Positions 16,864 through 28,697 of a stretch of 64,000 nt of DNA are shown here, in pieces. A program made the translations under genes and the position numbers. Each line of letters begins with the position of its first letter. Within the stretch, counting starts at the first letter, position 1. Origin of the DNA: Bosea sp. AS-1 (GTDB taxonomy: Bacteria; Pseudomonadota; Alphaproteobacteria; Rhizobiales; Beijerinckiaceae); contig NZ_CP022372.1 of assembly GCF_002220095.1 (NCBI RefSeq), positions 654,501-718,500 on the forward strand, written 5' to 3'. The notes beneath the pieces are model-generated. The model searched no databases, was not told the origin of the DNA, and worked only from the letters and a program-made list of their open reading frames with translations.

Positions 16864-18288
16864 TCAGTCGATGACGACTTTGGTTTCGCTCATTTCGCGC
16901 AGGGTCATGTGGATGCCCTCGCGGCCGAGGCCGCTCGACTTGATGCCGCCGAAGGGCACGTTCTCGGCCCGGAAATCCGGACCCTCGTTGATCATCACGC
17001 CACCGACGCGCAGCCGGCGCCCGACGCGCTTCACCAGCGCGTGGTCGTTGGTGAAGAGTCCGGCCTGCAGCCCGTAGCTTCCGGCGTTGATCTCGGCGAT
17101 CACCGCGCCGGGATCGTTGAAACGGCGTATCGCGAGCACCGGCCCGAAGGTCTCGGAGCGGACGAGTTCGGCCTGTGCCGGGACGGCGTCGAGCAGCGTC
17201 GGGGCGAATTGCGTACCGTGGCGGCCTCCGCCGATGATGATCCTGGCGCCGTCCGCGACGGCGAGTTTCACACGCCGCTCGACCTCCGCGGCCGCCGGTT
17301 CGTCGATGACGGTGCCCATGACCGTTCCGGCATCGGCCGGGTCGCCGGTCGTGACCTTCGCGACCCGCGCAGCGATGCGTTCGATCATCGTCTCGCGGAT
17401 GGCGTCGTGCAGATAGAGCCGCTTCACCGCGGCACAGCTCTGGCCGGCAATCTCGAAGCGGTGCGTGATCGCGACCTCCGCTGCCCGGTCGAGATCGGCA
17501 TCCGGCATGACGATGAGCGGGTCGTTGCCGCCGAGCTCCATCAGGCAGCGGACGAGGCCAGACGCATTCTTCAGTGCCAAGCCCGCAGCGGGGCCGCCGG
17601 TGAAACTGAGCAGGTCGATATCGCCGCTCGCGATCATCGCCGCGACCTCGGCTCCGCCATGGACAATGCCGAACAGATCTGCCGGGAAGCCCGCCTCTTC
17701 GGCAAGTTCCGCCAGGCGCTGCGCGGCGAGAGGCGCCTTCGGCGAGGGTTTCGCGACGACGGCATTGCCGGCGGCGATCGCGGGGCCGAGCTTGTGGCAG
17801 AGCAGGTTGAGCGGATAGTTGAACGGCGTGATCGCGCCGACGACCCCGGCCGGCTCATGGGTGATCACCGCCTGCTTGTCCGGCGCGCCCGGCACGATGG
17901 CGGTCGGTAGCACCTCGCCGTGCAGCACCGTGACGGCATCGCCGCTCAGCCGCAGCGTGTTACGTGCGCGGCGGACCTCGTTGCGGGCCTCGGTGATCGT
18001 CTTGCCGACCTCGGCGCAGATCGTCCGGGCCATCGCTTCAGCCTCGTCCCCGAGGCGGTCGGCGAGGCGATGCAGCAACGCCTTGCGCTCGGACGGCGTG
18101 CTGAAACGGAAAGCCGACCATGCCTTGCGGGCCCGACGCAAAGCCTCGGCGACGGCGACTTCGTCGGCCTGTCGGATCTTGCCGACGACGGACCCGTCGA
18201 ACGGATTGACGACCTCGACCAAAGGGGTGGCAGTCGCCCGGGCGGGCTTGGCGAGAGACATGGTCACGGTGACGTCACTCCGTTTCAT
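16864..18288 (-). CDS. NAD(P)-dependent aldehyde dehydrogenase
   Basis: A 474-residue ALDH superfamily enzyme. Catalytic residues are visible: Asn157 in ITPFNYPLNLL, Glu251 in MELGGNDPLIV and the nucleophile Cys285 in AGQSCAAVKR. The Lys180 segment VVAKPSPKAPL is the cofactor-binding region. In a D-hydroxyproline-type operon this position is filled by 2-oxoglutarate semialdehyde dehydrogenase, which gives 2-oxoglutarate. The start overlaps the end of the NAD(P)/FAD oxidoreductase gene by 14 bp. An in-frame ATG at 18261 (MSLAKPAR) would avoid the overlap and is an alternative start. Confidence 0.92.
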   Translation of the reverse strand: MKRSDVTVTMSLAKPARATATPLVEVVNPFDGSVVGKIRQADEVAVAEALRRARKAWSAFRFSTPSERKALLHRLADRLGDEAEAMARTICAEVGKTITEARNEVRRARNTLRLSGDAVTVLHGEVLPTAIVPGAPDKQAVITHEPAGVVGAITPFNYPLNLLCHKLGPAIAAGNAVVAKPSPKAPLAAQRLAELAEEAGFPADLFGIVHGGAEVAAMIASGDIDLLSFTGGPAAGLALKNASGLVRCLMELGGNDPLIVMPDADLDRAAEVAITHRFEIAGQSCAAVKRLYLHDAIRETMIERIAARVAKVTTGDPADAGTVMGTVIDEPAAAEVERRVKLAVADGARIIIGGGRHGTQFAPTLLDAVPAQAELVRSETFGPVLAIRRFNDPGAVIAEINAGSYGLQAGLFTNDHALVKRVGRRLRVGGVMINEGPDFRAENVPFGGIKSSGLGREGIHMTLREMSETKVVID

Positions 18289-19561
18289 CGGCGGTGAGGC
18301 GGGCGAGCGCCGCGACCGAAACCGGTCGCAGGGGCCAGCGCGGGGAAGAGGGGGCCGGCAGCGGCCGGCCCCTGAGGGCCGCGATCATCGGGCCGCAGAA
18401 GCGCCCCTGGCAGGCGCCGAGACCGAAGCGGCCCATCAGCCGGATCTCGCGGACAGAAGCGTCCTCGGCCAAGGCCTGCAGATCCGCATAGCTGCGCCCT
18501 TCGCAGCGGCAGATCAGAGTCTCGGGCGTTGGCCCAGCAGGTTCGCCATGCAAGGCTGTCGCGATCGCCGTCTGGAAGTCGCGTGCCCGCTGCAGGCCAC
18601 CTTCCTCTGCCGACAGGTTCGTGCCGGCCCGGCCAAGGCGAGCCAGTACCTGCAGCGCGGCGCGTCGGCCGTCGAGCAGCGCGGCGTCGGCACCCAGTGC
18701 CTCGCGCCCGTCGCCCGCCAGCAGGATCGGTACGCGCGCGTCCGGAGCAGGCAGCGGAATTCCGGCCCGGTTCGGCTCGATGCCGTCATGGATCAAGAGA
18801 TGCCGGACGCGCAGGGTTTGCTCGCCCGGGCCGGCGCTGATGCTGACCTTGAAACCGTCGCCATCCGACTCGGCTCGCGTGACGACGGCGCCGCAGCGAT
18901 AGGGGATGCGATGGACTGCGAGCGTCGCCGCATAGACCGCGGCCTCGCCGATCGGGCCAGCGGAGAAGGCGAGACGAGCCAATGCCCTCGATGCGCGCAA
19001 GGGCCGGCCGCGCTCCAGTACCGCGACCGGTGGATTGCCGGCGCGGGCGAGCTGGGCTGCGAGTGCAGGGAGCAAGGGGCCACTGCCGGCAATCAGGATC
19101 GGTCCTTCCGGTGGACGGCCGGTCTCCTTCAGCAAGACCTGCGCGCCGCCGACCGTCATGACACCGGGCAATTCCCAGCCGGGAAAGGGGCGGATCGTCT
19201 CGACAGCACCGACTGCGATGATCGCTGCCCGTGGACGGTGCGCGAAGACGCGATCGGCGCGGCGATCGTCGAACAGGAACCTGCCTTCGCCATCGACCCC
19301 GAGAAAGATGGTCTCGGTCTTCATCTCGATCCGGTCGGCCGAGGCGCGGAGCCGTGCCATCAACGTGACCCAGCTGCGGCGATGCCTTGCGGGTCGCCAG
19401 ATCGGGTTTTCGGAGCCGGCGGCCGGCTGGCGATGAATGGCGCCGCCGAGCTGGTCGCGCTGTTCGATCAGGCGGACGGGCAGTCCGGACTCCGCAAGCG
19501 TCGCTGCTGCGCTTGCGCCCGCCGGGCCGCCGCCGATGACGAGGATGGGCGCCTCAGCCAT
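18275..19561 (-). CDS. NAD(P)/FAD-dependent oxidoreductase with C-terminal BFD-like [2Fe-2S] region (HcnB/LhpF-like)
   Basis: A 428-residue flavoprotein. The N-terminal dinucleotide site is ILVIGGGPAGASAAATLAES. A second glycine motif, LIAGSGPLLPALAAQLARAG, lies in the middle. The C-terminal domain carries four Cys in LICRCEGRSY and GACQGRFCG, the BFD-type cluster site seen in HcnB, opine oxidase A and D-hydroxyproline dehydrogenase. Its gene sits between the small [2Fe-2S] protein gene and the ALDH gene. With the DAO-type flavoprotein and the small ferredoxin-like subunit it should form a heteromeric amino/imino-acid dehydrogenase. Confidence 0.9.
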   Translation of the reverse strand: MAEAPILVIGGGPAGASAAATLAESGLPVRLIEQRDQLGGAIHRQPAAGSENPIWRPARHRRSWVTLMARLRASADRIEMKTETIFLGVDGEGRFLFDDRRADRVFAHRPRAAIIAVGAVETIRPFPGWELPGVMTVGGAQVLLKETGRPPEGPILIAGSGPLLPALAAQLARAGNPPVAVLERGRPLRASRALARLAFSAGPIGEAAVYAATLAVHRIPYRCGAVVTRAESDGDGFKVSISAGPGEQTLRVRHLLIHDGIEPNRAGIPLPAPDARVPILLAGDGREALGADAALLDGRRAALQVLARLGRAGTNLSAEEGGLQRARDFQTAIATALHGEPAGPTPETLICRCEGRSYADLQALAEDASVREIRLMGRFGLGACQGRFCGPMIAALRGRPLPAPSSPRWPLRPVSVAALARLTADETE

Positions 19562-19820
19562 GGTCGGCTCCGATCGCGGGCAGAGGGCCGAGCCGGAGGC
19601 CGTCGCGTGCAGGTGTCAGGCAGGCTTCGACCGGCGCCGCATCCGCGACGGCGACGATGCAACCCTGGCAGGCGCCGATGCCGCAGAAGATGCGTCCACC
19701 CGGCGGACCGTCGTCGTGTCGGCCGAGATTGACGATCCCCGCCTTGAGCATCGCCGCGGCGATCGTCTCGCCCGGCTGAAAAGCCACCGGCGTGCCGTTC
19801 CAGAAGAAGTGGCCCGTCAT
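19554..19820 (-). CDS. (2Fe-2S)-binding subunit (HcnA/LhpE-like)
   Basis: An 88-residue protein with the plant-type ferredoxin pattern seen in the small subunit of HcnABC, octopine/nopaline oxidases and D-hydroxyproline dehydrogenase. The cluster ligands are in RIFCGIGACQGCIV plus a later Cys in VEACLTPAR. It overlaps both neighbours by short stretches (ATGA with the upstream DAO-type gene, eight bases with the downstream flavoprotein gene). This tight coupling supports a stoichiometric complex. It carries electrons between the two flavoproteins. Confidence 0.9.
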   Translation of the reverse strand: MTGHFFWNGTPVAFQPGETIAAAMLKAGIVNLGRHDDGPPGGRIFCGIGACQGCIVAVADAAPVEACLTPARDGLRLGPLPAIGADHG

Positions 19821-20974
19821 GCGTGCGCCTCGGAATGGACGAAGCGTTGCGGCGACAAGGCGGAGAGATCGACCTCGGGTTTCTCGCCGAGCAGAAGGCG
19901 AGCGGCGCTGGCGCCCATATAGGGGCCGAGGCAGATGCCGTCGCCTTCGAAGCCGGTGGCGATCACCATTCCCGCGCGCTGCGGATGCGGGCCGACGATC
20001 GGCAGCCCGTCGCGAGATGCGGTCCGCACCCCGGCGAAGCTGCGCAGTACGCGGCGATGAGCAAGCGGGGGATAGAGGTCGAGCGCCTCGCGCAGGATCG
20101 CCGCAATAGTCACGGCATCGGTCGAGTGGTCGCTGCGGTGATCCTCGCGGCTGCCGCCGATCAGGAACTGGCCCGTCATCAGAGGGTCGATCACCAACCC
20201 GATATGACCGTTGCCGCGGACGATGCCGCGCTTGGCCGCGAGGTATGAGGCCGCCATCAGATGGCCGTCTATCGCCGGGCCGGCGCCGCTGGCGCGGTCG
20301 GTCACGGCCATCTGCCCCTTGCGTGGGATCAGGATGTCGCCGAGGCCGAGCAGTGGCGCCGAGCCGATGCCGGCTGCGACGAGCACTGCGTCGGCCGAGA
20401 GCAAATCGTCCCGAACCGCGACGCCTGCGACGCGCCCGGCCTGCATGACGATCTCGGACGCCGGTGAGCCTCTGCGGATATCGATCCGGCTTCGGCGCAG
20501 GAGGCGTTCGGTGATCTCATAGCCCAGTGCGTGCCCGTCATCGGGGATTTCGAGCGCGGCGCGGACACTGGCACCCAGACCCGGGATGCGGGCCAGAAGC
20601 GTCGCACGGTCGATCTCGACGACCCGCTCGCCCGCCCTGGCGAGGTCGGCACCGTGCTGGGTGACGAGTTCGGCCTCGACCGGCGTTCGGGCGACGAGGA
20701 AGGTCGAGCGCCGATGGAACAGGCCGCGGAACAGTCCATCCTGCTCGCAGCGAGCGTAGAAGGCGCGGGCATGGCGGGCGAGGTCCATCATCGGGCCCGG
20801 CCGCTTGCTGGCGACCGAGACAGCCCCATCGGAGGCGCCGGTTGCACCCGCCGCCGGCCCGGAAGCATCGAGTAGCGTCACGCGGGCGCCGGCCGCCGCC
20901 AGGAAATGCGCGGCGGCGGCGCCTACGATCCCGGCGCCGATCACGGCGACATGTATGGAGGCAGAGGAAGCCAT
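19817..20974 (-). CDS. FAD-dependent D-amino/imino acid oxidoreductase (DAO family, HcnC/LhpB-like)
   Basis: A 385-residue DAO-fold flavoprotein. The FAD site is HVAVIGAGIVGAAAAHFLAA near the N-terminus; the C-terminal block GMVIATGFEGDGICLGPYMG is the second FAD contact. It is the probable dehydrogenase subunit that oxidises the C-N bond, with electrons passing to the [2Fe-2S] and FAD/NAD subunits rather than to oxygen. The ATG at 20974 (MASSASIHVAVIG) is chosen because the Rossmann motif begins seven residues later. The frame is open for 30 more codons into the divergent promoter region. It is the first gene of the ten-gene unit. Confidence 0.9.
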   Translation of the reverse strand: MASSASIHVAVIGAGIVGAAAAHFLAAAGARVTLLDASGPAAGATGASDGAVSVASKRPGPMMDLARHARAFYARCEQDGLFRGLFHRRSTFLVARTPVEAELVTQHGADLARAGERVVEIDRATLLARIPGLGASVRAALEIPDDGHALGYEITERLLRRSRIDIRRGSPASEIVMQAGRVAGVAVRDDLLSADAVLVAAGIGSAPLLGLGDILIPRKGQMAVTDRASGAGPAIDGHLMAASYLAAKRGIVRGNGHIGLVIDPLMTGQFLIGGSREDHRSDHSTDAVTIAAILREALDLYPPLAHRRVLRSFAGVRTASRDGLPIVGPHPQRAGMVIATGFEGDGICLGPYMGASAARLLLGEKPEVDLSALSPQRFVHSEAHA

Positions 20975-21056
20975 GCCGAAGCGGTTCGTCCCAGCGAGCG
21001 ATGGCCCGAACTTCGTCGGCTTCACCTGTCGGGTCGATGCAAATGATCCGTCTCGA

Positions 21057-21076
21057 CTTGCCACATTGTTTGCAAG
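21057..21076. promoter_or_regulatory. Inverted repeat, candidate LysR binding site
   Basis: In the gap between the divergent DAO-type gene (start 20974) and the LysR gene (start 21106 or 21133), CTTGC at 21057-21061 and GCAAG at 21072-21076 form a perfect dyad with a 10-bp spacer. A second, overlapping dyad CCAC/GTGG spans 21061-21079. LysR proteins recognise dyads of this size in divergent promoters. The assignment rests on position and symmetry only. Confidence 0.5.
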
Positions 21077-21132
21077 TGGCGAAAGCCGAGCTGTTGTAGG
21101 TAGGAATGACAGGCCGGCCCACGGTAGGGATC

Positions 21133-22017
21133 ATGCGCGAAGCCAATCTGACGCTCATCCAGACGTTCTTCATCGTCGCGCGCGACGGGTCCTACTCGGC
21201 TGCGGCGCGCAAGCTCGGCATGAGCTACCAGTCGGCCGCCAACCATGTGCGGCGCCTCGAGCAATTGCTGGCTGAGCGGCTGGTCGTCTCGGAGCAGGGC
21301 GCCAAGACGGTGACGCTGACGCCGCGCGGCCGCAGCCTCTACAAGCTGTTACTGCCGGAGCTTGATACCGTGCTGACCCGGCTCGATCGCACGCTCCAGA
21401 AGGAGCGGCCGGTGCTGCGCATAGGCCTGCCTCAGGCGATCTTCTTCTATTTGATGCCGCCGATCCTGGCCCGGTTCCGCGAGCTCTTCCCGCAGGTCGA
21501 GATCATCGCCTATGAGCGGGACACCGCACTCTCCGAGATGATCAAGGATGGCAGCCTCGACCTGTGCATTACCGAGCGCTATTTCGGCGACCCCAATGTG
21601 CCGCAGCATCTGATCTGCACCTATCGGCCGGCGCTGGTGGTACCGCGCGAATGGGGGCGTCCGCCGGCTGGGGCTCTCAGGGAATGGGTACGGGAGAGGC
21701 CCTTCATCACCTATGAACCCGGCCAGCTCCTGCGCAATCTCGCCATCGACTATCTCAGCCCCGAAGGTGCCGAGATGGAGATCGCCATCTCGACATCGGG
21801 CAGTTCCAGCGTGAAGCGCTGTGTCGAGGCCGGCCTCGGCTATGCGATCATTCCAGCCTGGTGCATGGACGGTACCGAGACCACGATCACCGCGATCGAT
21901 CTGCCGGAACTGCCCGAAATTCCGATCTATTTTGGCGAAGCCAGCTTTCTGGCGCGCAACCCTTACGTTGTTGCGCTTCGGCAGCTTTGCGTGGGCTTCA
22001 CGTCCGCGGTGGGATGA
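21133..22017 (+). CDS. LysR family transcriptional regulator
   Basis: A LysR protein of 294 residues from the ATG at 21133 (303 from the ATG at 21106). I prefer 21133 because LysR helix-turn-helix domains normally begin within a few residues of the start: MREANLTLIQTFFIVARDGS, then AAARKLGMSYQSAANHVRRL. The effector domain follows (LRIGLPQAIFFYLMPPILAR and later SSSVKRCVEAGLGYAIIPAW). It diverges from the dehydrogenase/ALDH/DapA operon and is its likely activator, responding to the imino or amino acid substrate. Confidence 0.93.
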   Translation: MREANLTLIQTFFIVARDGSYSAAARKLGMSYQSAANHVRRLEQLLAERLVVSEQGAKTVTLTPRGRSLYKLLLPELDTVLTRLDRTLQKERPVLRIGLPQAIFFYLMPPILARFRELFPQVEIIAYERDTALSEMIKDGSLDLCITERYFGDPNVPQHLICTYRPALVVPREWGRPPAGALREWVRERPFITYEPGQLLRNLAIDYLSPEGAEMEIAISTSGSSSVKRCVEAGLGYAIIPAWCMDGTETTITAIDLPELPEIPIYFGEASFLARNPYVVALRQLCVGFTSAVG

Positions 22018-22203: not shown

Positions 22204-23925
22204 TCAGGGCTCGCGCGCCGCGCGGAAGCCGTTGGTGTAGAAGCGCACGTCGGCCTCGTATTTGAAGCGGGCGGCTGAGCGCAGATAGCGTGGATCGTTG
22301 TTGAAGGAGCCGCCGCGCAGCACGCGCTCGCGGCAACCGGGCACCACATAGGCACTGCCGTCGCGCGGTGCGGATCGGTATGTCTCGCTCCAGCAATCCG
22401 TGACCCATTCGGCCGCGTTGCCGGCCATGTCGTAAAGGCCGAAGGCGTTGGGCGGGTACTGGCCCGACGCAACGGCGCTGCGGCGCGGCGGGTCGTTGCA
22501 GCCTATGCAATTCGCGCGGTCCTTCTCCATGGTCTGCCCCCAAGGATAGACCGTCGTCGTGCCGGCGCGCGCGGCATATTCCCATTCGCTCTCGCTGGGG
22601 AGTCGGTAGCGCTTTCCCGTCTTGGCCGAGAGCCAGGCGAGGTAGGCGTTGGCGTCGTTCCAGTGAACATCCGTGACGGGGCGCTTTCCGCGTCCGAGCC
22701 CGCGGTCGTCGGGCCGGTAGTTGCAGCCGCCCTCGCTTACACAGCGGTCCCATTCCTCGAAGCTCACCTCCCGCGTGCCGAGATAGAAACCGCGTATGGC
22801 AACAGGGTGAACGGGCTTCTCGAACTCGTAAAGATCGTTCGAACCCATCTGGAAGGAGCCGGGCGGAATCGCAATCAGCTCGGGGCAGTCGCTGCAATCG
22901 CGGACGGGGCCCGTTTTTGACGGCGATACGGCGGCAGGAGGCGGAGCAACCGAAGCAACGGTTGCGGCCGTCCCGGGCTTGCCGCGGTAGAGCTGTTCGC
23001 GGGCACGCGCGAGCGCTGAGAAACGACCATTCGGATAGGCATCGAGATAGGCGCGATATTCGCTGGCATTCTCGCTGTTGCGAATCGATTCCCAAAAGGC
23101 GAGCTCGAAGGCTTCCGGCGTGGCCTTGGAGCTGCTCGGGGGCAGGATGACGGCGCGGTTCGCCGCGGCGATTGCGACGGGGCGGCCGACCGGCGTCACC
23201 ACGAGCCCCTTTGGCGGTTCGGATGAGAGCCAGATTTGCTGACTGCGCCGGCTCGTCCGCGCGACGGCCTCACGTAGGCGGGCGAGGGCGGTCACCATGT
23301 CGAGGCCGGGCGTACGGATCACCTTCAGCCATTCGTCGATGGCTTGATTGCCGCGAGAGCCGGAGTCCGCGACGGTTTTTCCCGGCGCGGCGGTGAACAT
23401 CACCGCAACGGTCTCGAGCGGCTCGGTCGCGCGCAGGCCTTTCCCGCGTGCCTGCCAGGGATTGTCGCGGCTTGCGTCGATCAGCACGAGGGCGCTCGAC
23501 GGCTTGGCGATGATCAGCGGGTCGATGATCTCGTCGAGGTCGACTGCGTCCTGCACCGGGTGCGACGACGTCGGCACGAGAAAATTGCGGTCGCGTTGCT
23601 GCACGGCATGGCCGGAATAGAAGACGATGGCCTGCGCGCCGAGGCGCAATTTGCCGGCAAACTCCGCGATGGCCCGTCGCATTTCTGCGCGACCGCCGTT
23701 TTCGAGCGCGATTACCTCGAAGCCGCCTTCGCGCAGAGCCTCCGCGACGGCGCGTCCCTGTGCCGGTGAGCGGACAATGGCCGCATCGGGATAGCTGCCA
23801 TTGGCGATCACCAGCGCAATGCGGGGGCTCGGCGCAGCCTCTTGCGGCAGGGCAGGCGTTGCAGCAAGCGCGACGAGCGCGACTGCGAGGAAGAAGGAGC
23901 GCAACCAGTCCATGCTAGCGACCAT
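22204..23925 (-). CDS. Exported caspase-fold (C14) protein fused to a SUMF1 domain; both modules lack catalytic Cys
   Basis: A 573-residue protein. A signal peptide spans about 1-28 (MDWLRSFFLAVALVALAATP, cleavage after ALPQEA). A caspase p20-like domain spans 34-235, a helical linker 270-312 contains EYRAYLDAYPNGRFSALARA, and an FGE-sulfatase (SUMF1) domain spans about 348-570. The caspase His is kept (His106, FYSGHAVQ), but the catalytic Cys motif DACRNNP reads DASRDNP, so Ser152 (AGC at 23470-23472) replaces Cys. The SUMF1 domain has the structural motifs (IPPGSFQMG, LPSESEWEYAARAG, GLYDMAGNAAEW, RVLRGGSFNN) but not the paired Cys of formylglycine-generating enzymes. It is probably a binding or scaffold protein. 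It is the last gene of a three-gene unit with the DUF4399 genes. Confidence 0.88.
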   Translation of the reverse strand: MVASMDWLRSFFLAVALVALAATPALPQEAAPSPRIALVIANGSYPDAAIVRSPAQGRAVAEALREGGFEVIALENGGRAEMRRAIAEFAGKLRLGAQAIVFYSGHAVQQRDRNFLVPTSSHPVQDAVDLDEIIDPLIIAKPSSALVLIDASRDNPWQARGKGLRATEPLETVAVMFTAAPGKTVADSGSRGNQAIDEWLKVIRTPGLDMVTALARLREAVARTSRRSQQIWLSSEPPKGLVVTPVGRPVAIAAANRAVILPPSSSKATPEAFELAFWESIRNSENASEYRAYLDAYPNGRFSALARAREQLYRGKPGTAATVASVAPPPAAVSPSKTGPVRDCSDCPELIAIPPGSFQMGSNDLYEFEKPVHPVAIRGFYLGTREVSFEEWDRCVSEGGCNYRPDDRGLGRGKRPVTDVHWNDANAYLAWLSAKTGKRYRLPSESEWEYAARAGTTTVYPWGQTMEKDRANCIGCNDPPRRSAVASGQYPPNAFGLYDMAGNAAEWVTDCWSETYRSAPRDGSAYVVPGCRERVLRGGSFNNDPRYLRSAARFKYEADVRFYTNGFRAAREP

Positions 23926-23965
23926 TCGTCATCTGCGGCGTCTCGGGGCGCGGCCCGCTGCCGTC

Positions 23966-24421
23966 TCAGCGCACATAGATCGTGATCTTCTTCGACATCA
24001 CGGGCGGATCATGCGGCGTATGAGTATGATCTCCGACCAATAACTGCAGGGTATGTGTCCCCTTCGGCAAGGTGACGACAACCTCCGTTTGACCGTTGCC
24101 AAGATGGATATTGTTGTAATCGGACGGGATCGGCTGGTCGGGCGGCCCTGGATCGGTGTCGATCAGCAGATGGTGATGACCGGTCGCCGCATGTTCCACG
24201 CCTGCCGGTGCGACGCCCATATTCCGCAGGCCGACCCGAACGGTGAAGCGCTCCGGCACGTGCAGCCCGTCGAGGGGATAATGGAAATAGACCTGCGCGC
24301 CGGGCGGTGCCTTCTGTCGCCTCGAAGCCTGCGCCAGCACCTCGGTCGGCCAGAGCAGGGGCAGGGCGGCGAGCGAACATGCCACCAGGAGGGCGACTAC
24401 GATGCGGCGCGAGGTTCTCAT
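23966..24421 (-). CDS. DUF4399 protein, single domain, exported
   Basis: A 151-residue protein with a signal peptide (RRIVVALLVACSLAALPLLW, cleavage near VLAQA) and one DUF4399 domain. Histidine-rich signatures are GHHHLLIDTD, then PSDYNNIHLGNGQTE and LLVGDHTHTPHDPPV. The function of DUF4399 is not established; the conserved His clusters suggest metal or ligand binding in the periplasm. The start overlaps the stop of the triple-DUF4399 gene (ATGA), and a 40-bp gap precedes the caspase/SUMF1 gene. The sequence is closest to the repeats of its upstream neighbour, so a local duplication is likely. Confidence 0.87.
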   Translation of the reverse strand: MRTSRRIVVALLVACSLAALPLLWPTEVLAQASRRQKAPPGAQVYFHYPLDGLHVPERFTVRVGLRNMGVAPAGVEHAATGHHHLLIDTDPGPPDQPIPSDYNNIHLGNGQTEVVVTLPKGTHTLQLLVGDHTHTPHDPPVMSKKITIYVR

Positions 24422-25698
24422 CGACGCCTCGTCGGTTTGCCACCACCCGGCATCACCATGACGGTGATACGCTCCGACATGACGGGCGGATCGTGCGGCA
24501 CATGGTTCTCGTCGGCGAGCAGCAGCTGCAGCGTATGCTTGCCGGGCGAGAGGGTGATGCGCCGTTCTGTCTGGCCGCCGCCGAGATGGATGTGGTTGAG
24601 ATCCGACGGGATCGGCTCGTCGAGCGCCGGGGTCGGCACATCGACCAGCAGGTGGTGGTGGCCCGTGTTCGGCTTGGCGACGCCCGCCGGCGCGACGCCC
24701 ATGTTGCGCAAGCCGAAACGGATCGTCGAGCTCGGGAAGATCGTCTCCCCATCCTTCGGATAGATGAAGTAGACGGCGGCATCGTTGGGCGAAGCTGTCC
24801 GCGGGCGCCCTGCCCCTGCCACCGGAGCTGCGGGCGCCGCGGGACCGGCCCGCTCCGTGTCGACGACACGCACCCGGATCCGCTCGGACATCACCGGAGG
24901 ATCATGCGGAACATGTTCGTGGTCGCCCAGGAGGAGCTGCAGCGTATGCTCGCCCGGCGGGAGCGAGAGTTCGACCTCGGTCTGGCCGCGTCCGAAATGC
25001 AGATGGTTGAAATCGCTTGGGATCTCGCGGTCGAGCGCGGGCACTTCGGTGTCGACCAGCAGATGATGGTGACCGCCATTTGGGTTCGCCGTGCCGGCGG
25101 GCGTGATGGCAATACCCTCGCTGCCGAAGCGAATCTTCGCACGGGTCGGGATCGTCGCTCCGTCCTTGAGATCGATGAAGAAGACGCGGGCACCCGGAGC
25201 GGCGGCGGAGCGCGGCTTCTCGGTAGGATCGGCCGCGACTTCGACAGTGATCCGTTCGGACACCAGCGGAGGGTCATGTGGCACGTGGTTATGGTCGGCG
25301 AAGAGAAGCTGGAGCGTATGTCGCCCGGGCGTCAGTGCGATCTCGGCCTCGGTCTGCCCACCACCGAAATGGATGTGGTTGAAATCGCTCGGGATAGGCT
25401 GGTCGAGCGGCGGCAGATCGGTGTCGATCAGCAGATGATGGTGGCCGGAATTGCGTCTGGTCTGCCCGGCGGGAGCGACCTCCATGCCGCTGATTGCGAA
25501 GCGAACGATGAACTTGCCGGGGACGCGGTCATTATTGGCGAGGCCGATGAAGCTGAGCTTGGCGGTTGCCGGGGCCGGGCTGCGCTGCATCGCGCGCGCC
25601 TGGGCCGCTGCCTCGCCGGCCGGAAGAGCCATGGCAAAGGCACAAGCCAGGGCCGCCGGTACCAGGACGGGGACGAGGCAAGGCATCCTCAACGGCAT
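24418..25698 (-). CDS. Exported protein with three tandem DUF4399 domains
   Basis: A 426-residue protein with an N-terminal signal peptide (PAALACAFAMALPAGEAAAQ) and three DUF4399 domains, at about 45-150, 170-280 and 300-420. They are joined by Pro/Ala-rich linkers. Each repeats the same order of motifs: APAG, then GHHHLL.DT or GHHHLLVD, IPSD.NH.HFG or HLG, GQTE, LQLL, and a DH or DE.HVPHDPP-type ending. DUF4399 proteins usually have one domain; three in one chain plus a fourth in the next gene is unusual. It is the first gene of the minus-strand arm, facing the active caspase gene across a 149-bp gap. Confidence 0.87.
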   Translation of the reverse strand: MPLRMPCLVPVLVPAALACAFAMALPAGEAAAQARAMQRSPAPATAKLSFIGLANNDRVPGKFIVRFAISGMEVAPAGQTRRNSGHHHLLIDTDLPPLDQPIPSDFNHIHFGGGQTEAEIALTPGRHTLQLLFADHNHVPHDPPLVSERITVEVAADPTEKPRSAAAPGARVFFIDLKDGATIPTRAKIRFGSEGIAITPAGTANPNGGHHHLLVDTEVPALDREIPSDFNHLHFGRGQTEVELSLPPGEHTLQLLLGDHEHVPHDPPVMSERIRVRVVDTERAGPAAPAAPVAGAGRPRTASPNDAAVYFIYPKDGETIFPSSTIRFGLRNMGVAPAGVAKPNTGHHHLLVDVPTPALDEPIPSDLNHIHLGGGQTERRITLSPGKHTLQLLLADENHVPHDPPVMSERITVMVMPGGGKPTRRR

Positions 25699-25847
25699 CG
25701 ACGTCTCCCATCCACGAGACGAATACAGAGAGGCTACCAGCGTGTCCTCGCTCCTTCAAGCGGAACACTTGGCATTGACGTAGCTGGAGTGGCTTTGTTC
25801 TGGAGTTCGGCCAAGTCATGCGCTAGCCTGATGCGAGGAAGGGGATC

Positions 25848-27302
25848 ATGATCCTCATCGCCAGACTCTGCGGGCTGATCATGCTGATGCTGACGGGTCT
25901 GGCCCTGGCCGCGCCGGCTCCGGAGCGTCGTGTCGCGCTCGTCATCGGCAATTCCAGCTACCGCAATGCGCCCGTTTTACCGAATACGGTCAACGATGCC
26001 GGCGATATGGCCGCGGCGCTCCGCAAAGTCGGCTTCGAGGTGATCGACGGGATCGATCTCGACAAGCGTGGCATGGACGCGCTGCTGACGCGCTTCGCCC
26101 GTCTGGCGCAGGATGCCGATTCCGCGATGTTCTACTTCGCCGGGCACGGCTTCCAGTTCAACGGCGAAAACTACTTGGTGCCGATCGAAGCCAAGATCGA
26201 GGACGAGGTCGGCGTCCAGTACGAGACCATGCGCCTGAACGACGTCGTCACGGCCCTGAACTATGCCAAGGGCGTCAAGATCATGGTGCTGGACGCCTGC
26301 CGCAACAATCCTTTCGTCAACCAGCTCGCCAGGCGGCAGGCGACGCGGGGCTTCTCGGTGAGCTCCGGCCTCGCCCCGGTGGCGCGGGCACAGGGAATGG
26401 TCATCGCCTATGCGACGCAGGCCAACGACGTCGCTGCCGATGGAGCCGGCCGCAACAGCCCGTTCACGGCGGCTCTGGTGCGCGAGATCGACCAGCCGGG
26501 GCTGGAGGTGGCGACCCTGTTCCGCCGTGTCCAGAAGAGCGTCTATGATGCGACTTCCGGCCGCCAGACTCCCGAGCTCTCGCTTTCGCTGCTCGGCGAT
26601 TTCTACCTCAACCGCGAAGAGACCGATGCCGATGTCTGGCAGCGTATCCGCGCCAGCGACGAGCCAGGGGCGCTGCGCGACTTCATCCAGCGCTATCCGG
26701 CGAGCTTCTTCGCCGTCGATGCGCGCACGCGTCTCGACTTGATCGAGCGCCGCTCGCTCGCCACGAGCGAACGTGACAGGCTGGTGCGCGAGTTCGCGGA
26801 GCGTGAACACGCACTGCTCGAACGTCTCGAACGGGCCGAACAGGGGCGCCAGCAGGCGGCGACCGATCTCGCACGGCAGGAACGCAACCAGGCGAGCGCC
26901 CTGCCGCCCGCGGCCGGAGATATCCCGCGGGTGAAGCCGGCTCCGAGTCCGCCCAAGCCACCGGCCGAGGACACGGCCGAGCGCTCCCGTCTCGCCGACG
27001 AACTGGCGCGGCGTGAGAAGGAGCTGGCCGGGCTCGAAGCCGAGAAGCAGCGCTTGGCCGAGGAGCGCCGCAATGTCGAGCAGGCACTGGCGGCACGGCT
27101 CGGTACGCTGGTGCCCTCTTCGCCGGATCGCTCGGCTCAGCCCCAAGCCATGCCGGCGAGCGCGCCGCGCCCGATCGAGCGCCGCGCCGACACTCCGGCC
27201 GCCGGGGCGCCAGGCAAGGCGAATTGCAGCGAGCTTCTGCTACGCGCCCAACTCGGCGACCTGACGCCCCTGGCGCGCGAGCAGCTTCAGCAATGCCGCT
27301 GA
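25848..27302 (+). CDS. Exported caspase-like protease (peptidase C14) with coiled-coil tail
   Basis: A 484-residue protein. The signal peptide is MILIARLCGLIMLMLTGLAL with cleavage near AAPA. The caspase p20 domain (about 27-245) has an intact dyad: His100 in YFAGHGFQ and Cys151 in LDACRNNPF. A helical segment around 262-290 (VWQRIRASDEPGALRDFIQR) follows. Then come two charged coiled-coil stretches (about 297-345 and 380-420) separated by Pro, and a short C-terminal motif with two Cys (NCSELLLRAQLGD...LQQCR). It should cleave after basic residues, as bacterial C14 enzymes generally do, but in the envelope. An AAGGGG ribosome site lies before the ATG. It precedes the OmpA-domain gene by 49 bp, so the two are probably co-transcribed. 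Confidence 0.9.
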   Translation: MILIARLCGLIMLMLTGLALAAPAPERRVALVIGNSSYRNAPVLPNTVNDAGDMAAALRKVGFEVIDGIDLDKRGMDALLTRFARLAQDADSAMFYFAGHGFQFNGENYLVPIEAKIEDEVGVQYETMRLNDVVTALNYAKGVKIMVLDACRNNPFVNQLARRQATRGFSVSSGLAPVARAQGMVIAYATQANDVAADGAGRNSPFTAALVREIDQPGLEVATLFRRVQKSVYDATSGRQTPELSLSLLGDFYLNREETDADVWQRIRASDEPGALRDFIQRYPASFFAVDARTRLDLIERRSLATSERDRLVREFAEREHALLERLERAEQGRQQAATDLARQERNQASALPPAAGDIPRVKPAPSPPKPPAEDTAERSRLADELARREKELAGLEAEKQRLAEERRNVEQALAARLGTLVPSSPDRSAQPQAMPASAPRPIERRADTPAAGAPGKANCSELLLRAQLGDLTPLAREQLQQCR

Positions 27303-27351
27303 GTGATGTCGAATGGGGTGAAGTGAAAGTCCGGCATGGGGAGGAATGAAG

Positions 27352-28527
27352 ATGTCGACCGTCACGCGCCTCGCCTGGATTCTGCCCTTGCCGGCGTTTC
27401 TGGCAAGTGCCGCCCCTGCCTGGGCGCAATCGCCGCCGCCCACGCCGGTGCCTTTCCAGCAGGCGCTGCAGAAGGCGGCCGACGATCTCTTCGGCAAGGC
27501 CTCGCTCACCGACCGGCAAATCGACCTCGTCATCGATCCGCTGATCGACGCAGCCTCCGGCTCGCAGTCGACAGCCACCCGCTCGATGCAGCAGACCCTG
27601 ATCGAGATCGCCCGCAAATCCTATCCGCGCTTCGCCATCCGTGCCTTCGACAGCGAGACGCTCGCGCGCAAGCCGGTCGTGCTGGTCGGAACCTTCACGG
27701 CGGTGAACAACAGCGGCGTGGCCGATGGCCCGAAGGATGCCTACCGGATTTGCCTGACGCTGGCCGATCTGAAGTCGAACAGCGTCGTCTCGAAGGGCGT
27801 GGCGCGCGCTCAGATCGAGGGCGTCGACGTGACGCCGACCCCATTCTATCGCGAGTCGCCGCTCTGGGCGCAGGACCCCGCCACCAGCGCCTATGTCAAA
27901 ACCTGTCAGGGCACGAAGCTCGGCGAGGCGATCGATCCGGCCTATGTCGAACGGTTGACGGCCAATGCCTTGGTCAATGACGGCATCCTTGCCTATGAGT
28001 CACAGCATTTCCGCGAGGCTCTGGCCTATTATCGCGCCGCGCGCAAACTGCCGGGCGGTGAGCAGCATCGGGTCAGGATCGGGACCTATCTCGCCGCCAG
28101 CAAGCTAGCCCGGCGCGACGACATGGTCGATGCCTTCGGCGATCTCGTCGATTACGGCCTCGGCACCAACCAGTTGATGGTGAAGCTGCTGTTCAAGCCG
28201 GGCACCACCCAGTTCATCGACGATCCACGGATCACCGAGCCCTATCCGATGTGGCTGAGCCAGATCGCCACGCACGCCCGCCAGAAGGGCGCCTGCCTGG
28301 AGGTTGTCGGCCACACATCGCACACCGGGCTGCCGCAGGTGAACGAGCGTCTGTCGACACTGCGCGCCCAGTTCGTCATGGACCTGTTACTGACCGGTGC
28401 CCCCGAGAATCGCAGCCGCATCATCGCGACCGGGCGCGGCTTCAAGGAAAATCTCATCGGAACCGGCAAGGACGACAGCAGCGACGCGCTCGATCGGCGA
28501 GTGGAGTTCAAAGTAATCGGCTGCTGA
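27352..28527 (+). CDS. Exported OmpA-family C-terminal domain protein
   Basis: A 391-residue protein with a signal peptide ending near AAPAWAQS. A central region of unknown fold follows; residues about 205-260 look like a TPR-type helical pair (NDGILAYESQHFREALAYYR). The C-terminal domain (about 275-391) is OmpA-like, with a start of LLFKPGTTQFID and the peptidoglycan-contact segment GHTSHTGLPQVNERLSTLRA and ATGRGFKENLIGT. It should bind peptidoglycan. The ATG at 27352 is six bases after AGGA; an ATG at 27346 is too close to that site. It lies downstream of the caspase gene and may anchor or receive its activity. Confidence 0.85.
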   Translation: MSTVTRLAWILPLPAFLASAAPAWAQSPPPTPVPFQQALQKAADDLFGKASLTDRQIDLVIDPLIDAASGSQSTATRSMQQTLIEIARKSYPRFAIRAFDSETLARKPVVLVGTFTAVNNSGVADGPKDAYRICLTLADLKSNSVVSKGVARAQIEGVDVTPTPFYRESPLWAQDPATSAYVKTCQGTKLGEAIDPAYVERLTANALVNDGILAYESQHFREALAYYRAARKLPGGEQHRVRIGTYLAASKLARRDDMVDAFGDLVDYGLGTNQLMVKLLFKPGTTQFIDDPRITEPYPMWLSQIATHARQKGACLEVVGHTSHTGLPQVNERLSTLRAQFVMDLLLTGAPENRSRIIATGRGFKENLIGTGKDDSSDALDRRVEFKVIGC

Positions 28528-28620: not shown

Positions 28621-28697
28621 TGGCGCGCCCGAAAGGATTCGAACCTCTGACCCTCAGATTCGTAGTCTGATGCTCTATCCAGCTGAGCTACGGGCGC
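28621..28697 (-). tRNA. tRNA-Arg (ACG)
   Basis: A 77-nt tRNA on the minus strand with encoded CCA. The acceptor stem GCGCCCG pairs with CGGGCGC, discriminator G. The D-arm reads AGCTCAGCTGGATAGAGC. The anticodon stem-loop has GACTACGAATC with anticodon ACG (decoded as ICG after deamination), and the T-arm contains GGTTCGAATCC. Confidence 0.97.

Follow-up and report, generated by a model that had tools for sequence, protein, structure and literature searches.

The 64,000-nucleotide stretch analyzed here, referred to as the window, comes from Bosea sp. AS-1 (contig NZ_CP022372.1, positions 654,501 to 718,500), which has a genome of 5.84 Mb and whose closest relatives are named Bosea. Five adjacent genes in this window diverge from a 149-bp gap and encode a caspase-SUMF1 fusion, two DUF4399 proteins, a separate caspase-like protease, and an OmpA-domain protein. 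This arrangement, originally predicted from the letters of the sequence, was confirmed by open reading frames (ORFs) and by Pfam domains, which were called above curated cutoffs. The features are listed below by window position.

22204..23925, minus strand: pseudo-caspase/SUMF1 fusion, 573 amino acids (aa), predicted to be exported (ORF; PF00656 and PF03781; N-terminal hydrophobic segment)
23215..23823, minus strand: caspase (p20-like) domain within the fusion, with a His/Ser dyad (PF00656; ratio of nonsynonymous to synonymous substitution rates, dN/dS)
23470..23472, minus strand: Ser codon of the fusion at the catalytic-Cys position, DASR versus DACR (alignment of 43 copies)
22213..22887, minus strand: SUMF1 domain of the fusion, PvdO-like by sequence, without the catalytic cysteines of formylglycine-generating enzyme (FGE) (PF03781; PvdO match; FGE alignment)
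23966..24421, minus strand: single-DUF4399 protein, 151 aa (one PF14347 domain)
24418..25698, minus strand: triple-DUF4399 protein, 426 aa (three PF14347 domains)
25699..25847, no strand: divergent gap, 149 bp, presumed site of both promoters (ORF bounds)
25848..27302, plus strand: caspase-like protease with an intact dyad, 484 aa, predicted to be exported (PF00656)
26145-26147 and 26298-26300, plus strand: His100 and Cys151, respectively, of the separate caspase (conserved in 43/43 copies)
27346..28527, plus strand: OmpA-domain protein, 393 aa (PF00691 at residues 297-377)
27448..27816, plus strand: N-terminal domain of the OmpA-domain protein, weakly LpoB/PelC/TolB-N-like

Each arm looks like an operon, because the stop of the triple-DUF4399 gene and the start of the single-DUF4399 gene share a 4-bp overlap and the spacings between the single-DUF4399 and fusion genes and between the caspase and OmpA genes are 40 and 43 bp, respectively; the genes of each arm would thus be co-transcribed. 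The overlap was found in all 42 relatives that were scored (ATGA in 30, GTGA in 12), in the downstream frame. No sigma-70-type promoter was matched in the 149-bp gap; the region gave 1 match, against a shuffle mean of 1.1. A 19-residue stretch with a Kyte-Doolittle mean of at least 1.6 was present in four of the five N termini. The OmpA-domain protein fell below this threshold, and its N terminus nonetheless reads like a Sec signal peptide. The products of the cluster are therefore predicted to be exported.

The fusion, the caspase, the OmpA-domain protein, and the DUF4399 family were each searched for in 121 genomes, of which 67 represent the genus, including the genome of the window (Bosea thiooxidans is listed as Allobosea in the present NCBI taxonomy). 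The fusion occurred in 44 of the 67 genomes. Of these 44, 43 also had an orthologue of the separate caspase and all 44 had an orthologue of the OmpA-domain protein, and neither orthologue was found in the 23 genus genomes that lack the fusion (0/23 for each). Because the genus genomes are related, these co-occurrence counts are not independent. The sole fusion genome without the separate caspase (G059) has a broken assembly, in which the fusion is partial too. The OmpA orthologue lies on a different contig in G021, G059, and G064, the copy in G021 being a fragment of only 105 residues. The order and orientation of the five genes were kept in 40 of 43 fetched Bosea loci, and the remaining 3 are truncated at the edge of a contig. 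In L059, L070, and L072, which are among the 40, one gene is split across two frames. These split frames, each in a single genome, affect the separate caspase (L059:9570-11226; L072:3089-4628) and the fusion (L070:10606-12425), and they reflect either sequencing error or real loss.

Around 41 of the loci, the flanking genes fell into 11 groups on the left and 13 on the right (BLAST, within about 6 kb; divergence may have split some groups). A conserved order amid differing flanks indicates that the cluster stayed together while its surroundings changed. Joint presence and absence across 67 genomes and the order in 40/43 loci thus bear out the view that the five Bosea genes belong together as a unit. 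The cluster is real, well conserved, and under-described, and its location is predicted to be the cell envelope.

The two caspase domains differ in their catalytic dyads. The separate caspase retained His and Cys in all 43 aligned copies and, with a p20 domain (PF00656) carrying this dyad, qualifies as an orthocaspase. In the 43 copies of the fused domain, His was present in 41, and the Cys position was occupied by Ser (23 copies), Gly (11), Ala (7), or Thr (2) and never by Cys; a p20 domain with such a substituted dyad defines a pseudo-orthocaspase. The claim that the separate caspase is intact and the proposed contrast between a protease and a pseudoprotease are thus both upheld, and the Ser-for-Cys replacement is a detail that the original prediction did not contain. 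It is unlikely that this Ser acts as a nucleophile, because copies with Gly and Ala exist. For five pairs of sequences, dN/dS was 0.18 to 0.23 in the dead caspase, 0.09 to 0.12 in SUMF1, and 0.05 to 0.07 in the live caspase domain. With its ratio of 0.18 to 0.23, the fused caspase is under purifying selection and is therefore retained as a protein fold, presumably without proteolysis. Orthocaspases cleave after positively charged residues, according to PMC6426788.

Additional caspases were observed near the cluster and elsewhere. A third caspase adjoins the cluster in six Bosea loci (L060:3688-6045, L061:12623-14857, L062-L064, and L078), with His/Cys in the three that were read; Pfam scans of three of the loci (L060, L061, and L078) matched the C-terminal part of this caspase to an outer-membrane beta-barrel domain, with L078 just below the cutoff. 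In L094:3900-8036 and L095:3902-8043, a paralogue of the live caspase (64 to 65%) is divergent from another caspase, which in L094 is a caspase-beta-barrel protein (Pfam). The genome of the window itself encodes three further caspases (L185-L187), one with Sel1 repeats and one with a peptidoglycan-binding domain; L187 has a Tyr/Ala dyad and is therefore another pseudo-caspase.

The SUMF1 domain of the fusion was most similar, among proteins of solved structure, to PvdO, a dihydropyoverdine dehydrogenase (PDB 5hha; E value, 5.9e-40), aligning over the DCxxCPE start common to both and the rest of the domain. PvdO is a 286-residue chain without a caspase domain, unlike the fusion, which scored 163.2 bits against a cutoff of 500 bits for the PvdO NCBIfam equivalog and so falls outside it. 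The catalytic cysteines of human FGE are Cys336 and Cys341. In our alignment, one of them lies opposite Asn and the other within a stretch that is absent from the fusion; for this reason the domain is not an FGE, and a role as a sulfatase-maturing or formylglycine-generating enzyme was ruled out. The motifs NND and YLR are invariant across the 43 Bosea copies. Six other Cys residues of SUMF1 are invariant and two are nearly so (14 aligned members), as would be expected for disulfides of an exported domain.

The two DUF4399 proteins contain four PF14347 domains in total (one and three), all above the cutoff, and seven His residues are common to the four domains, which may bind a metal or a metal-dependent ligand through them. 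A structure model of the single-domain protein (mean predicted local distance difference test score [pLDDT], 84.1) is a beta sandwich resembling the immunoglobulin/fibronectin type III (Ig/Fn3) arrangement. An identity as cupredoxin was rejected; the sole sequence match was to ascorbate oxidase (E value, 0.9), and the fold search listed Ig/Fn3-like domains, although DUF4399 may have some other fold.

The OmpA-domain protein belongs to PF00691 (29.6 bits; cutoff, 27.2 bits) and is predicted to bind, and thereby anchor itself to, peptidoglycan. The fold of its OmpA domain rests on Pfam, because the domain was modeled with low confidence. Residues 35 to 157, here fused to the OmpA domain, have a predicted fold with a weak structural likeness to LpoB/PelC/TolB-N-like domains. 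A paralogue of this protein (about 40%) was seen directly beside a different SUMF1 gene in L188-L191, in loci where no DUF4399 was seen.

Comparisons beyond the five genes changed our view of which part of the cluster is central. The original prediction described it as built around two caspases. The conserved core is instead SUMF1 plus DUF4399, because loci with no caspase, or with another domain in its place, still have this pair. The domain N-terminal to SUMF1 can be a dead caspase (Bosea and Methylobacterium), a His/Cys caspase (family f249), a cyclase with one transmembrane (TM) segment (the Bradyrhizobium-like family f36 and some Bosea), SH3, or none. DUF4399 lies beside a caspase-less SUMF1 protein in four Bosea genomes and beside a cyclase-type SUMF1 in five. 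The SUMF1-DUF4399 pair was present in 8 of 8 fetched DUF4399 loci of f36, among which a named Bradyrhizobium nests. One further alphaproteobacterial locus combines SH3-SUMF1, two DUF4399 genes, and a separate caspase.

The cyclase form would have the layout of a receptor. Pfam identified the cyclase domain in 6 scanned members of the 14 cyclase-group proteins, and two more align with these end to end. One TM-like segment precedes SUMF1 in 14/14, following the cyclase where mapped; a segment between the two domains would place SUMF1 outside and the cyclase inside. The residues D54, K94, D98, N158, and R162, which we take to be the metal- and substrate-binding residues of cyclases, are invariant in six aligned sequences. 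This predicted layout fits the reading of SUMF1 as part of a sensor.

In f249, a pseudomonadotal family outside the Alphaproteobacteria (probably Burkholderiaceae), we read 10 of 30 close relatives, plus the distant G877, which has no DUF4399. Two DUF4399 genes diverge from the SUMF1 gene in all 10 close relatives; SUMF1 is fused to a caspase in 7 of them, with His/Cys in 7/7. At one f249 locus (L153:2193-12786, genome G742), the fusion and the DUF4399 genes lie between FHA-like, outer-membrane efflux-like, and Ser/Thr-kinase-like genes (identified by ORF reading only).

Close relatives of the fusion were found in 12 of 99 Methylobacterium genomes (E value, <1e-84; a thirteenth relative, in G1009, with an E value of 2.6e-81, was left out). 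A two-domain DUF4399 gene adjoins the fusion in 11 of the 12, and the twelfth locus stops at a contig edge. The dyads of these fusions were Tyr/Ala (9), Leu/Ala (2), and other (1), with His/Cys in none of the 12. Locus L203 of Methylobacterium WSM2598 has three adjacent genes, for a caspase with His/Cys, a two-domain DUF4399 protein, and a pseudo-caspase-SUMF1 protein with Tyr/Ala.

The specificity of the link was evaluated. A SUMF1-motif scan, of which we considered the best 80 of 529 loci, showed a DUF4399 neighbor at 3/3 loci scoring at least 300 bits and at 0/77 below; this is a weak test, because linked sequences had been used to train the profile and L217 is apparently the same contig as L076. 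In a tree of 96 SUMF1 domains, the 53 rows of DUF4399-linked groups formed one clade (support, 93/88). Within it, two starred subclades separated the cyclase, f249, and SH3 forms from Bosea and Methylobacterium (98/96). DUF4399 lies beside 52 of the 53 clade rows and 0 of the 43 rows outside the clade. The tree included 11 Bosea fusion rows (10 relatives and the window), omitted L217, contained rows of other SUMF1 proteins up to L235, and held two identical rows (L203 and L290) from one genome. Outside the genus, 95 DUF4399 loci were fetched, which are a subset (L096-L104 cover only about 3 kb, and L104 scored under the family cutoff). The relationship is asymmetric, as 52/53 clade rows against 11/95 DUF4399 loci with SUMF1 nearby indicate: this SUMF1 subfamily nearly always has DUF4399, whereas DUF4399 is often alone. 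The observation that was to refute the original prediction, namely, DUF4399 genes being independent neighbors in most relatives, was thus half borne out: outside Bosea they mostly stand alone, and within Bosea they belong to the unit.

Several elements of the cluster have published counterparts, and the original statement that no described system has this composition was too strong. In 2012, 33 sequences (4.9%) were listed as caspase homologues that contain an FGE-sulfatase domain (PMC3501461). Such fusions (PMC3501461, PMC6426788) combine a caspase and a SUMF1 domain in one protein, as here; the sequences described in the excerpted text lack both a DUF4399 partner and a live/dead caspase pair of the kind predicted to be exported in Bosea. 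Pseudo-orthocaspases are reported as abundant in Rhizobiales, the same bacterial order, and likewise have a p20-like domain with a substituted dyad (PMC6426788). The excerpted text lists the dyads Tyr/Ser, Tyr/Ala, Phe/Ser, Gln/Cys, and His/Ala, with other C-terminal parts; Tyr/Ala is also the dyad seen in Methylobacterium here. Bosea differs from these in having mostly His with Ser, Gly, Ala, or Thr, a SUMF1 fusion, and an adjoining DUF4399.

A broader parallel is provided by nucleoside triphosphate (NTP)-dependent conflict systems, in which, as far as the excerpted account goes, caspases and cyclases are exchanged and effector caspases are mostly inactive (PMC7159879). SUMF1-type (FGS) folds are regarded there as C-type lectins and were proposed as the sensor domains of conflict systems (PMC7159879, PMC10907252), and in cyanobacterial systems extra domains are always N-terminal to the FGS domain (PMC7159879). 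Our group of clusters shares with the FGS/EACC1-caspase systems domains located N-terminal to FGS, a cyclic nucleotide monophosphate (cNMP) cyclase in place of the caspase, and inactive effector caspases. In contrast to the systems in the excerpted account, the five genes have no NTPase, vWA, MoxR, or EACC1 domain, are predicted to be exported, and have DUF4399 and OmpA partners (PMC7159879). No NTPase partner (MoxR, STAND, or AP-GTPase) was detected with Pfam in the five genes and two neighbors, and the match to the EACC1-associated caspase family NF047832 (57.7 bits; cutoff, 140) places the cluster outside it. The cluster is thus an instance of the theme of SUMF1/caspase proteins with exchangeable effectors, with DUF4399 as a new partner family. 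No published description of the DUF4399-SUMF1 pairing was found in the open-access literature, and none of the three papers found to name DUF4399 is a functional study of it, judging by the title and the start of the abstract.

With a probability of roughly 0.4, we propose an envelope sensor made up of SUMF1 and DUF4399; in Bosea, the dead caspase would serve as its output and gate the co-encoded protease close to the peptidoglycan. SUMF1 would be the input module because it keeps DUF4399 as its partner when a different domain occupies the opposite end of the protein. With both arms exported, SUMF1 and DUF4399 would bind each other or recognize one envelope ligand, perhaps through a metal, and the N-terminal domain of the SUMF1 protein would report this recognition. 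In Bosea, the fused dead caspase would dock on the live caspase from the opposite arm and hold or release it, and the live caspase, itself predicted to be exported, would be kept near the peptidoglycan by its OmpA-domain partner.

A number of observations weigh against this proposal. SUMF1 was near DUF4399 at only 11 of the 95 loci fetched outside the genus, all in three families, and at none of the other 84, which include 3 of 5 f249 DUF4399 loci. The fold evidence for DUF4399 and for the N terminus of the OmpA-domain protein is generic, the Ig/Fn3 arrangement matched by DUF4399 being a common one. In Methylobacterium, a separate caspase lies beside DUF4399 in only 4 of 9 testable loci, two of which are from near-identical genomes, with the dyad read in one. 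In the other 5, no separate caspase was found on the DUF4399 side, the other side being covered for about 1.5 kb only. The dead caspase is consequently not always accompanied by an adjacent partner, and a rule of one active caspase per cluster, which we had considered, was dropped. In Methylobacterium, the partner may be encoded at another site, or the dead domain may function differently. The support for the DUF4399-linked clade (93/88) is slightly below the starred level of the tool. Finally, with Bosea and Methylobacterium placed in a single SUMF1 subclade (98/96), Cys may have been lost in one old event, and separate losses of the dyad in the two genera are unsupported.

Extended beyond Bosea, the sensor proposal becomes more tentative. 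It is possible that DUF4399 and PvdO-like SUMF1 are the halves of an unrecognized envelope receptor with plug-in outputs. At least three groups of Pseudomonadota would use it, the output being a live fused caspase, a pseudo-protease that gates another caspase encoded separately, or a transmembrane cyclase of the adenylate type. Such a receptor would provide a first function for DUF4399 and, to our knowledge, the first bacterial dead caspase that regulates a live one outside the cytoplasm.

Among the alternatives, an enzymatic role is unlikely but fares best. Here, SUMF1 would be a PvdO-like periplasmic oxidoreductase, DUF4399 would supply or buffer its metal, the caspase would process a substrate of the pathway, and the dead caspase would be a mere N-terminal scaffold. 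PvdO is the best match of solved structure, aligned from the DCxxCPE start onward, and the seven His residues of the four DUF4399 domains and the conserved SUMF1 cysteines would suit such a role. However, 163.2 bits is far under the 500-bit PvdO cutoff, Pfam revealed no biosynthetic domain in the five genes, and replacement of the caspase by a cyclase does not suit a pathway enzyme. We consider it rather improbable that the cluster serves cell wall homeostasis, with the OmpA-domain protein regulating peptidoglycan synthesis in an LpoB-like manner and the caspase trimming an envelope protein upon wall damage. Envelope defense or programmed death, in which SUMF1 would sense an invader or a kin signal and the caspase would kill the cell or the invader, seems similarly improbable. 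Conflict systems are indeed reported to contain SUMF1-type (FGS) domains, to exchange caspases and cyclases, and to have effector-position caspases that are mostly inactive (excerpted text of PMC7159879). However, the described systems are NTP dependent, and Pfam revealed no NTPase domain in any of the five proteins; dN/dS is low throughout, which is not an arms-race pattern; and matches in PADLOC were only weak and generic. A catalogued defense system was rejected accordingly (PADLOC "caspase," E values of 2.9e-9 and 0.0036; ZorB/MotB versus the OmpA domain, 2.6e-7). That the genes are chance neighbors held by linkage, with no common function, is very improbable and was already disfavored, even though most relatives fetched from outside the genus have DUF4399 as a lone gene, given the order kept amid changing flanks, the joint presence and absence, and the recurrence of the SUMF1-DUF4399 link in f36, f249, f203, and Methylobacterium.

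The sensor proposal bears on two protein families. We know of no role assigned to DUF4399; as a strict partner in Bosea that recurs in Methylobacterium, Bradyrhizobium-like genomes, and f249, its role becomes testable. Most discussion of bacterial caspases treats them as death effectors of the cytoplasm; here, the live caspase, the dead caspase, and the barrel-fused caspase of one Bosea subgroup each suggest an envelope location. The live/dead pair provides a compact natural setting for studying the function of pseudo-caspases, and the cyclase variant offers an easy cNMP readout in a search for the ligand of the sensor.

Other genes surround the cluster. Before it, window positions 16864-22017 encode an aldehyde dehydrogenase and two FAD oxidoreductases, together with a divergently oriented LysR regulator; this is probably a catabolic operon with no relation to the cluster. 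A tRNA-Arg (ACG) gene lies just beyond the OmpA gene (28621-28697), and a tRNA gene was present on that side in 0 of 40 relatives. In six relatives (e.g., L056 and L071), a tRNA-Gly gene is located 0.5 to 1.5 kb past the end of the fusion.

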